From positions 1,237,913 to 1,301,912 of the forward strand of contig RPFO01000022.1 in the NCBI GenBank assembly GCA_009746045.1: a DNA stretch of 64,000 nucleotides, written 5' to 3'. Each line of letters opens with the position of its first letter. Positions within the stretch are counted from its first letter, which is position 1. Source of the stretch: Mesostigma viride (Eukaryota; Streptophyta; Mesostigmatophyceae; Mesostigmatales; Mesostigmataceae). Positions 12,901 to 57,100 of the stretch are shown here, in pieces. Position numbers and translations under genes: made by a program. The notes beneath the pieces were generated by a model. The model was not told where the DNA came from. It did not search any database and saw nothing but the letters and a program-made list of their open reading frames with translations.

Positions 12901-15900
12901 CATCCTTTACTCCTAATGCCTTGTGCCCATCATTTACCCCTAAAGCCGTGTGCCCACCCTTTACTCCTAATGCCTTGTGCCCATCATTTACCCCTAAAGC
13001 CTTGTGCCCATCATTTACCCCTAAAGCCGTGTGCCCATCATTTACCCCTAATGCCTTGTGCCCACCCTTTACTCCTAATGCCTTGTCCACGTCCTTCACT
13101 CCTAATGCGCTGTGCCCATCCTTTACTCCTAAAGCCTTGTCCCCATGCTTCACTCCTAATTCCTTGTCCCCATCCTGTGCTCCTAATGCCTTTGCTCCCA
13201 ATGCCTTGTCCCCACCCTTTGGCCCCACCCTTGGTCCCCGCCACAGCCCGAGAACCTCCTGCTGGACTCCCGTTCCAACTTGAAGATTTCGGACTTTGGC
13301 CTCAGCGCGCTTCCCAAGCAGCTGGAGGTGAGGCCCAGTTTGCGTGAGGCAGCCTGCCCCCCCCCCCCCCCCCCCCCCCCCCGGCACACAGGGCTACATC
13401 TTCTGTTTCAGTGTTGGATGGTGATGCCTAGTGATGTAGGGAGTAAGGACCACCGGTAGGCAGGAACCTACCGACAGGGCGCCGGGAACAGGGCACCAGG
13501 GTTGGCAGGAGGTGGTAGCTTTTTCCTGCCATGCACGTGGAGCTTCAAATTCAGCGATCCGCGTGGCTTGAAAGTCGAGCGAAGCAGTCTAAAATAAAAT
13601 ATCCTTGTGGAACAATACCACCGATCAGTTTCAGTACACCTTCTGGTCGTACTTTCTACTCTCGTTCATGGGTATTAAAGGGTAGCCCACGGATACGTGT
13701 ACCATCAGGCAGTGCATTACCAAGCGTTCCCTCTGGTTTGGCGGTTTGGCCTGGTCTGCTTGCGCGTGGGACCCCGCGTCGCCCTCCCCCGCAGCATGAC
13801 GGCCTCCTTCACACTACGTGCGGCACGCCCAACTATGTGGCGCCCGAGGTGCTGCTGGACAAAGGATACGATGGCAAGCTGGCGGACATCTGGACATGCG
13901 GCGTCATCCTATTCGTGCTCATGGCAGGGTACCTGCCCTTTGACGAACCAGCGCTGGGGCCACTGTTTAAAAAGGTAAGGGGGTTGGGGCCGCTGTTCAG
14001 AAAGATTGAACAGGGTGAGGGCTATGTGTGCCAATGTTGTACCCCACATGAATGCGTATAGGGGCGGCTCTTCAACAAGGAAGGGATGGGGCCCGCTGCA
14101 TAGAAAAGTGAGCGGGCTGCTGTTCAGGACGGCCACGAGGTTGTTTTTATGCTTGCGCGCATGCTTACACCTGTGCCTGCTTGTTTGTGCTTGTGTCAAC
14201 CTCTTGGGCCGCGCAGATCTCGAAGGCGGACTTCATTTGCCCCCCCTGGTTCAGCGCCGATGTCAAGGCCATGCTGCACCGGCTGCTGGAGCCAAACCCG
14301 ACCAAGGCACGTGCCGGCAAGCGCAAAGCTCTGTGAAACGGGAAGCCGGCCCCTCCATGAGTGATTTCCTCGCAACATGTCAAAGAGGGAACCAGCGCAG
14401 GCCAGAAAACCTGGAAGAATCCGGACCATGGCAGCTCGAGCCTGCTGTTGTCTAATCCGCATAAAAGGCACTGCTAAGGATCCTACTGCTTGCTTACGGC
14501 TACCACCGTGTGTAGTGCGATATTAACACACTTCTGCATGAGTACCGGTGCTCAACGTAACCCAAGACAGAGTGGAGTGGTTCGCGATGCACATGTATAA
14601 ATCTCGAGCGCCCCCCCCCTTCGTTCGGCAATACTGGATGCCTGCGTCAAGTATGTCAACCCACCCCCCAACAGTGTGTCACTGAGACAGCCAGCACAGG
14701 CCAGAAATCTGGAGAATCCAGACCATGGCAGCGTATGTCCATGGCCGAGCTCAATACCATGGAGTTGATTTGCCATGCTCATGTGATATTCAAGCAGTCC
14801 CCTCTGGCAATACTGTATGCCTCTATATCGCCAAACTCAATTCTGTGGTTTGCCATGCGCATGTGATCCTCACACTCCTCCCTTGGCCGATACGGTATGC
14901 CTTCCCATCCCGTTCCGGGACCCCACCCCCACCAGCGCATATCCATCGCGGAGCTGAAGACCATGGAGTGGTTCGCAAGGGACTATGTGCCGTGCGTGGG
15001 GTACGACACCCAAGTGGACCCTTTTGCGGATGGGCCAGGGGGCGAGGGCCTGGACGGGGTGTTCAAGGGGGCAGACGAGGTGAGCGGCTGCGGGCATGCA
15101 CACATGCTTTACAAAACTATATTGACCACTCACACAAAGACATCAGACATGTCATCCACGTGTGACGCTTGAGGCGCTGCGATTCCAGCCTCCCTCTCTG
15201 AGGTATTGGTGGTGGATACGATGGCATTGCGGTGGCGGAGACTGCAGCGCGGTGGCATGCTCGTGGCACCCTGATTGCTGTCGGCCTAGTCTCCTGTGCT
15301 GAACATGCTTTGTGGAAAACAGCACCTCGTGCGATGTGCCGCATGACTCCGCGTGAGGACGCCCCTACCCTTGTGAGCACCAGCGCTAGGCCCTGTGTGG
15401 AGACCACCGCTGTGACTTGTGCTAAACGCCGTCCGCAGCAACGCAGGATGTCGTCACTACCTTTTTTTTTTTTTTACCTTCAGTATCAATGTGTTTGTTA
15501 GCCCATACTATGCGCTGCGCTGACACCAACCATACGCCCTGTGCCAACCCCATGCGCCGCGCCGCAGGAGGACGTCCCCCCTGCACCCGACATCAAGAAG
15601 CCACCGCTGCCCGCCAGCCCCCGCGCCCCTGGCATGCCCATCACCATGAACGCGTTTGAGCTGCTGACGCTGTCCAGCGGGCTGGACCTGTCCGGCATGT
15701 TCACGCGGCGCGAGGTGGGTGATTGGTACTTGGAACTAGTATGTGTTAGTAGAATGTGTCGGCAGAAGGTATCAGAAATACTTAGATAGCATTGCCTTTG
15801 GACGCTTGTTCGCGTGGCGCGAGGTGGGTGCTGCGAATACTAGTGGCCGTGCTACTGTAGTGCCTACACAGCAGACTGGGCCTGTCCGGCACATTTACGC

Positions 15901-54172: not shown

Positions 54173-57100
54173 ATGCGCCGAGTACCCCACCAGGGGGTTA
54201 CCAACGGGCAGGCCCCGTTGCTGGTTCGCGTGCGTACAATCAGCAAGCGCCTCGCCAGCGCCAAGTTGTCGGTTACGCTACCGCGTGTTGCGGGCTTCAT
54301 TATATCATGCCTTCTGCTGCGTTGGTTGATGATATCCTTCGGTATCATCAGCCCAGAAGAGAGCGGCATATCCCCGATTAAACGCATGGTAGAGCTACAT
54401 ATGGCACCCCCAGCCAAAGAACCGCCGTGGCAGGATCCACCCTACGGTGTCTCGCTAATCGAAGAGACCCCCGCGGACGCGCTCGCGGCAGCGTTAGCCG
54501 ACCAGCCCTGGAAGACCCGGGCGTACTCCTCCCTGCTGGCCACGCACCAGATCAAGCTCCACGAGCGGCTCGAACAGATCAGCAAGGGGCGCCCGCTCAC
54601 TGATGACGACGACGAGGGCGAGGACTGGAATGCGCTCGAAGAGAAGGCCAAGGAAATAGGAAGCTCGCTGTTTGGCTGGCTAGGCGGCGCCGCAGAGGGC
54701 CGCCCGGCCAGCCCAGGGGGCGGCGCCGAGTGCTGGAGCGACAATGACGGCTGCCACGGCCATGGCAGGTGCGGCGCCAGTGGCAAGTGCGAGTTCTGTT
54801 CCGTCCTGTACAGCGGCCCCTCTTGCTCCGCGCGTGTGGACCTGGGCATCTCGGCCCCCTCGGCACGACCCGAGGCGCTGCGCAGCATCCAGCTGGGCGG
54901 CTACGACGGCCCGTTTGTGATGACCCAGACGAGCATGGACATGTTCCTGGGCCACAACATCAGCGTGGACCTCCCCGAGAAGGTGGGGGGGGGGGCTTGG
55001 GGGGTTGTGGGGGAGTTGTTTTTGTGTGTGTATGTGTCTGACGTTGGGGGGGGGGGAAGGAAGGGTAGGAAGGGGCCAGGGGCCAGGGGCGGGAGAAGGG
55101 GAGGGGGGAAGGGGACGAGGGGGGAGCGGGGGAGGGGGGGAGCGGAGGCAGGGAAGAGGGGGATGGGGGGGGGGGGGGGGCAGCTGCCTGCAGTGATGTT
55201 TAGGACGAGGCATGCGTGGGTATTAGGCTAGCCCCACTTTGCTGTGACCAGCAAGTTGCCAGTACAAATTATCAAGGTGTGCTAAGTGACTACGGCATCC
55301 AGCACGTTTAGGTTGGGTGTTTTACTCGTGTGGGTCCGCAGTTAGAGTGGGCCTCTCTAATACTGGTATCGGCCACGAAATGGTACCTTTGTTTTGGACA
55401 TCCGTGTCTTTTGGTGTGACGCGCATTCATGGGAACGTGTTTTCGTCCCGTGCCGACTGCCGAGCATGTGTTCCATGTTGTGATGCTTGCAACCGGCTTG
55501 TCTCAAATAGCTCTACTCAAATCGAGTGTCAAGGTGGAACACGTTCGCTTTCTCGACCTAGTTTCTGAAGGAAGCACACGCCGCCCGCTCTAATAGAGTA
55601 CACCCCCGACAGCGTGGGCGCGCAAGTAGCGTGTGCCACACTATAATATTAGCAGCATCTCCCCCCAAAGGATCGGCTCGCAAGTACTGTGGCCCACACT
55701 GAATACATCGTACGGTGCCTGGGTAGACCTGGTCCATCAAGAGATGCCGGTGGGCCGGACCTGACCGGGATGTTGGTGTCACGGCTTACCAGGACTGAAC
55801 TGCACCCGCCGCATGCTTGGGGAGGCGTACGGTCGTAGGCCCCTGTGCCTGTGCATGGAGCCAATGGCCCAGACACATGAGGAGCACCGAGGCATCGTGC
55901 TCCCACACATGCGGGTACCCATGCCGTGCCACTCTACTGTATTTAATTTGGTGGACGATTAGGATTTCAGCACAGGCCCTCTGGCAACACGGTACTGCAC
56001 ATACCCATGTGGCTCGTGTAGTATGAGCACCCCTTGATGGTGCCACATTTTTATGCTACCACGCGTCTGCTTAGAATGCCACCAGTCTCTGGCATCCCTG
56101 CCCCGTCCCCTTATGCTGGCCCATGCTGCACACGTGCTTGGATATTCCCTTAAAGGTTGTCGGTCTGACTTCCCCTGTGCCCTCCATGCTTGCTGGCTGC
56201 CTCCCGTCGCCCCTCTTGCTGCGCCATGCCGGCGGACAGAGCAAGACGCTGGGCATCGCGTCCCCTGAGTTCCTGCAGCTGCTACCCAAGGAGGACGTGT
56301 TCAAAGTGTACAACACTTGTGCCATCGTGGGCAGGTAAATGTGGGGCAGGGGCATGACTTTAAAAAGAGGACAAGTTGTACAACACTTGTGCCTTCGTGG
56401 GCAGGTAGATGTTGGGCAGGGGCATGATTGCAAAAGAGGACAATGTGTACACTTGTGCCATGGTGGGCAAGTTGGCGCGCATGGGTGTTGGGGTAAGTGT
56501 CTCTAGCACTAGTCAGCCACTCGTGGCCATCCCCCTGCCAATGTGGTTACCATTGCTGACTGCGGGTGCTTGGAGAGCCGACGGACCCTTGAGCGTGGCT
56601 GCTAACTGTCGGTGTAGACAGCACAGCTGCGACATGCCCGATGCCACCTGCCATGGCAATCATGCGGAGTCATCTGACGCTCCCCTCTGCTGCGGATCTT
56701 GCGCACGTTTGCTCAAATGTTCGACAAAAATAGAGATAGAAAACGTGCATTACATCAAGGGTTTGATAATGGTGCAGTTAGGTCCTTGTCTGTGTGCATT
56801 TGCTCCCCTGTCTTATTTTCTTTTGCGCTTCTGTTTGCATGGTTTTGCTTCTTCTTGCGCTGCTTGTGTCTGTTGCCTTCTGGCCACACATGTGGTAATT
56901 CAACATCGGCCACAACTGGCTGCGTGCGCCAGCTCGGGCATCCTCCTCTATTTTAAGAACGGCGGCGCCATCGATGAACACGAGCTCGTGGTTCGCTTCA
57001 ACAACGCTCCCACACAGGGGTTTGAGGTAAAGGAAACGGGTTGGAGGTAGGGACCGCGCGCTGGAGGTCGCGCCCAGTGGACCTTGCTTTGAATCATGCG

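Follow-up and report, generated by a model that had tools for sequence, protein, structure and literature searches.

Tandem duplications that cross splice junctions, of the type found here in a window of 64,000 nucleotides (nt) of nuclear DNA from the alga Mesostigma viride, have close published parallels. In the human CBS gene, c.844_845ins68 is a 68-bp duplication of the intron 7/exon 8 junction, and the product is preserved, the splicing machinery favouring one site (PMC2630376; the text speaks of donor sites, the title cited there of 3' splice sites). A 31-bp variable number of tandem repeats of the same gene, c.1444_1467+7(16_21), covers, as read from its name, 24 exonic and 7 intronic nt across the donor, like the repeats of the algal window. 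Both CBS variants are human polymorphisms, whereas a single algal assembly is considered here. Introns originating from tandem arrays have reportedly been described by Zhuo et al. 2007. Internal tandem repeats at exon-intron boundaries of human paralogues can alter splicing (PMC2812944). The latter two cases concern new or alternative introns; the published Mesostigma gene models, in contrast, use the outer junction. In the potato RdRp gene a tandem duplication crosses an intron-exon boundary, and a further 83-bp tandem duplication lies inside the intron (PMC4974935); the potato duplication made a new intron, whereas none is seen in the Mesostigma window. Small tandem duplications have been regarded as a mutational source of intron gain in Drosophila (Lehmann et al. 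2010; PMC2891723), yet AGGT gain, as in the Rogers model, needs a duplicated exonic proto-splice site, and its signature is absent in the Mesostigma window. As far as the literature was searched, what is new is the set of instances in M. viride, clear and easily scored splice-junction duplications in an early-branching streptophyte.

The window (C777:1237913-1301912 of a 439.9-Mb assembly) hosts five modelled genes, CIPK, SepSecS, RTE1, Tim8 and part of GT29. A preliminary description of this DNA had listed ten echoes in four of these genes, that is, exon edges recurring in the adjacent intron or 3' flank. Nine are clear at the positions reported in Table 1, the CIPK exon 6 echo being borderline (score 14.0, 99th percentile of random pairs 9.5). 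Echoes were located by self-comparison, Tandem Repeats Finder (TRF) and a junction-anchored scan. In the edge test, 50-nt exon-only windows were matched to the adjacent intron, with dinucleotide shuffles of the intron as null and p<0.001 as threshold. Seven of 64 splice edges (donors 5/32, acceptors 2/32) match the flanking intron. The same was found in 1 of 75 exon-interior tests, a case that corresponds to the internal portion of the echo at CIPK exon 8. Edges exceed interiors (p=0.024), contrary to the equal rates that, according to the preliminary description, would speak against edge echoes; an earlier version of the test (58 edges, 62 interior tests) likewise gave 7 and 1. Edge echoes are real. 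No RTE1 exon edge matches its own introns at p<0.01 in the exon-only test.

Echoes are direct, local tandem duplications of DNA straddling junctions, as had been proposed. Sixty-five edges were searched against the whole 64 kb, on both strands and with modelled exons masked. All matches scoring at least 20 (seven places, six of the 65 edges) are direct, and lie 38-289 nt from the edge. No distant or inverted edge match within the 64 kb reaches this score (the best is 19), and significant inverted matches between an edge and the intron next to it are absent (0 of 64 edges). That edges might have spread into further introns or onto the opposite strand was considered, and discarded since nothing over background was found within the 64 kb. 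Introner elements, by comparison, are related introns dispersed across many loci (PMC7789003), and within the 64 kb searched all distant edge matches score below 20. In six of eight families copies continue, at least partly, beyond the junction into intron DNA, the exceptions being SepSecS exon 2, whose copies do not cross the junction, and CIPK exon 8, whose copies extend hardly past CAG. Copies running through the junction argue for tandem duplication of genomic DNA, and not for the insertion of spliced RNA copies. In CIPK and SepSecS the exon is likely the source of the copies, because it encodes conserved protein, as judged by alignment to human and Arabidopsis sequences. In Tim8 the coding end is repeated three times in the 3' flank; no splice junction is involved, and either the coding end or the flank may be the source.

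Table 1. Positions of exon-edge echoes and of modelled genes in the 64,000-nt window
Feature	Position	Strand	Details and support
CIPK exon 6, donor edge and decayed adjoining echo	13951-14007	+	borderline: p=0.0045 and 0.0017 in two test versions
CIPK exon 8, acceptor edge	14729-14969	+	edge 14933-14969 (exon start 14936), echo 14729-14765; exon-only p=3e-6
CIPK exon 9, donor edge (15714)	15675-15976	+	echoes 15794-15830, 15869-15913, 15945-15976; p=7e-8
CIPK exon 12, donor edge (17959)	17945-18122, decayed remnants to 18261	+	38-nt tandem array; TRF score 290
SepSecS exon 2, donor-side edge	38271-38410	-	edge 38385-38410 (donor edge 38378), echo 38271-38296; p=1e-5
SepSecS exon 3, acceptor edge (37050)	37035-37260	-	edge 37035-37072, upstream echoes 37118-37155 and about 37223-37260; p=5e-4
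SepSecS exon 9 and donor edge (29521)	29293-29613	-	echoes 29293-29343, 29378-29399; p=1.5e-6
SepSecS exon 11 and donor-straddling array	27749-28309	-	donor edge 28247; TRF score 799; p=3e-9
GT29, donor edge (56334)	56302-56472	+	70/66-nt tandem array, about 2.4 copies; TRF score 236; p=9e-9
Tim8, coding end (52426) and 3' flank	52237-52443	-	copies 52416-52443, 52376-52410, 52320-52347, 52237-52271; self-comparison
CIPK gene (SnRK3 type kinase, NAF domain)	6964-18975	+	13 exons; Pkinase and NAF Pfam matches
SepSecS gene	23704-39288	-	15 exons; PF05889 matches in exons
RTE1-like gene	41601-43475	+	3 exons; PF05608, E 1e-40; model in frame
Tim8-like gene	52426-53179	-	3 exons; tblastn with a TIMM8A sequence; in-frame model
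GT29 (sialyltransferase-like) gene	56240-57474	+	three internal exons modelled; in-frame model CAIVGSSG...VVRFNNAPTQGFE

Copies of several ages, many with copied splice sites, are found, as the preliminary description had stated. They range from near-identical (SepSecS exon 11) to 65-75% identical across the junction (SepSecS exon 2, CIPK exon 8), and GT is kept in 15 of the 16 echo donors revealed by the junction-anchored scan; the SepSecS exon 2 echo is without GT. Copies of SepSecS exon 3 are made up by 22 intronic and 16 exonic nt, the unit of the CIPK exon 12 array by 15 exonic and 23 intronic nt. The latter escaped the exon-only test because just 15 nt per unit are exonic, and the case rests on the 38-nt array. 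In the SepSecS exon 11 array a 53/56-nt unit recurs eight more times beyond the exon, as far as 27789, and a remnant extends to 27749. Echoes of the GT29 donor edge begin at 56372 and 56449.

The joined CIPK exons encode 550 amino acids, 550/550 residues being the same as in the Mesvir1 protein Mv05962-RA (EukProt), and SepSecS exons 1-14 are 100% identical to Mv05963-RA from the same source. Identity to published proteins provides independent support for 12 CIPK and 13 SepSecS introns. The outermost splice sites are those employed in both published proteins, CIPK and SepSecS; in GT29 outer-site use is predicted from the in-frame model. SepSecS exon 15, with the stop codon, is present at 23704-23833 (- strand), and the published SepSecS model, ending after exon 14, looks truncated. 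Two introns have GC in place of GT at their start, CIPK intron 7 (AAG/GCACGT, 14307, + strand) and SepSecS intron 8 (CAG/GCAAGT, 30080, - strand). The GT29 model found no match in any family search; its product, CAIVGSSG...VVRFNNAPTQGFE, presumably resembles sialylmotif L.

Echoes are very probably ordinary local tandem duplications, neutral, which happen to straddle existing junctions. Segments of about 30-200 nt would be duplicated side by side across the non-coding DNA of M. viride, by a route that we infer to be slippage, template switching or unequal exchange. Within exons such duplications would alter the protein, and few are seen there. A duplication across a junction would leave two copies of the splice site; with the outer, original site in use the mRNA would be unchanged and the extra copy spliced out, the echo staying in the intron and decaying there. 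Junction duplications may be tolerated because outer-site splicing leaves the mRNA unchanged. Ten echo donors were examined in five exons. Seven would bring a stop if used; the three open ones are all in SepSecS exon 11, and one of them adds 165 nt in frame. Exon-derived copies are also easier to notice, since decay affects the intron copy alone, its exon counterpart being conserved. A striking exon-edge pattern can thus arise from background local duplication coupled to the protection of exons.

The abundance of local repeats away from junctions is consistent with this explanation. Overall, 118 of 507 intron windows have a match at another place of the same intron. Outside arrays the figure is 22/388, lower, though not significantly, than the 7/64 of the edges (odds ratio 2.04, p=0.16), and non-array windows near exons are no richer (4/71 within 60 nt, 11/97 beyond 400 nt). 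Local repeat families with a unit of at least 20 nt were counted in 15 further stretches (L006-L020, 143.6 kb in total, with six adjoining the window; L001-L005 were excluded, since they share sequence with it). Eighty-five were found, or 5.9 per 10 kb. The first 60 kb of the window contain 44, or 7.3 per 10 kb, and none was found in 50 kb of null sequence, obtained by Markov-shuffling five stretches once each.

Exon edges outside the window were monitored in 19 stretches (L006-L024, 183.6 kb), using a Markov null and 800-nt flanks. Exons were predicted by a finder based on codons and splice sites, trained on the five genes of the window. Within the window the finder gave 22 predictions, of which 16 coincide exactly with modelled exons and 6 lie elsewhere (unmodelled genes or false), and a control on reversed sequence gave 3 predictions vs. 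32 on the real one. A bias of the finder against echo-bearing exons was considered and rejected, 6 of 8 being recovered exactly vs. 10 of 21 others. In the strict set (37 predicted internal exons) echoes are found at 2/73 edges, 1/160 interiors and 162/1070 non-coding windows, in the relaxed set (71 predicted exons) at 4/136, 1/274 and 162/1030, respectively; the non-coding windows may include unrecognised exons and mobile elements. The echo rate of predicted edges is roughly one fifth that of non-coding DNA (p=0.0015, strict set), with a weak excess over interiors (p=0.23 and 0.04 in the strict and relaxed sets, respectively). The genome-wide habit of exon edges suggested in the preliminary description finds no support in these stretches. 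Most exons elsewhere, predicted and not annotated, are echo-free, which comes close to the absence from most other genes that the same description had set against its own claim. Claims on edge echoes need an intron-interior control as well as an exon-interior one. Both strict matches are the two edges of one predicted exon (L020, - strand, 7036-7164 in the coordinates of that strand), and in the relaxed set the acceptor edge of a predicted exon next to it also echoes; the L020 exon is perhaps a tandem exon duplication.

A few results weigh against neutral, indifferent duplication. Outside arrays, 11 of the 388 intron windows have inverted matches, vs. 22 with direct ones, hence some local intron copying is not simple tandem. 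The distribution of repeats was assessed by placing at random 33 repeat families from CIPK, SepSecS, RTE1 and GT29. The Tim8 3' flank family was excluded, two neighbouring CIPK families (14378 and 14416) were joined by hand into one, and some outlying blocks, in three families, were omitted; array unit lengths were taken from TRF, and a 22-family version excludes units shorter than 20. Eight of 33 families touch an exon edge, 3.9 being expected (P=0.03), and with units of at least 20 the figure is 8/22, vs. 2.55 expected (P=0.002). Finally, edges echo more in the window than outside, 7/64 vs. 2/73 (p=0.08) or 4/136 (p=0.04), a comparison to be taken with caution, since rates outside compare well mutually, less well with those in the window, where dinucleotide shuffles and whole introns were used. 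A higher rate is expected of a window picked for echoes, which is no proof that this choice is its cause, and a mild edge excess within the window is possible.

Such an excess might mean that junctions, chiefly donors, are mild hot spots of tandem duplication in the long-intron genes of Mesostigma, giving fast-growing arrays and a stock of alternative donors, as exemplified by the tandem donor arrays of SepSecS exon 11 and CIPK exon 12; we regard this as unlikely. It is improbable, too, that a process targeted to edges, such as clashes at donors between replication and transcription, R-loops or splicing, preferentially duplicates junctions. Both the edge-touching of longer-unit families and the prevalence of donors over acceptors among significant edges are in line with targeting. 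Yet the excess shrinks once conserved exon copies are given two-fold detection odds, a factor assumed from one copy decaying instead of two: expected families rise to 6.8 (P=0.36, n=33) and 4.48 (P=0.057, n=22), and, with a laxer overlap rule added, to 8.7 (P=0.68, n=33) and 5.80 (P=0.20, n=22). Targeting is also at odds with the low rate of echoes at edges outside the window relative to non-coding DNA, and with intron windows close to exons being no richer in matches than remote ones.

It is very improbable that selection keeps donor arrays as decoy or regulatory splice sites. The retention of GT in nearly all echo donors would be in favour, yet 8 of the 16 belong to one young and nearly uniform array, that of SepSecS exon 11, and GT retention therefore says little; that the published models of CIPK and SepSecS splice at the outer site also speaks against a selected role. 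Highly improbable is the view that echoes are scars of intron birth from an AGGT-containing exon segment duplicated in tandem. AG/GT-like junctions are present in the tandem copies, but the expected signature, intron ends resembling the opposite exon ends, is missing in all introns analyzed (0/32 above the 99th percentile of random pairs), and most copies include intron sequence. Chance similarity or an assembly artefact, for which only the borderline CIPK exon 6 might speak, has a negligible probability, given seven significant edges where 0.06 are expected, and substitutions separating most copies, unlike a read duplicated in assembly.

The published Mesostigma genome measures 441.8 Mb; its introns average 1142 bp, and repeats fill 30.1% of the intron space (PMC6947507). 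Its annotation counts 24,431 genes. Edge-echo families account for 382 of 10,359 intron nt in CIPK (3.7%), 804 of 13,836 in SepSecS (5.8%) and 138 of 968 in two GT29 introns (14.3%). Other local repeats account for 2,739 (26.4%), 2,321 (16.8%) and 0 (0%) nt, respectively. Local duplication lengthens introns in these genes; junction copies, which the preliminary description had named as a possible driver, are the smaller part in CIPK and SepSecS.

Long satellites, with units AGGG, ACCG, TCCCC, 40-nt and 26-nt, reside at 7227-8014, 17574-17840, 21364-22066, 31129-31666 and 32827-33747, all within CIPK or SepSecS introns except that at 21364-22066. Two directly repeated copies, about 850 nt long and 90% identical, lie at 47141-47974 and 49086-49935, spaced 1.95 kb apart, and a shorter repeat pair is found at 63086-63440 and 63629-64000. 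A piece of reverse transcriptase (PF00078, E 7e-20) at 44464-45063 (+ strand) is probably part of a retrotransposon, as is probably a second PF00078 piece at about 62510-62671 (+ strand), which falls below the cut-off (E 9e-4).

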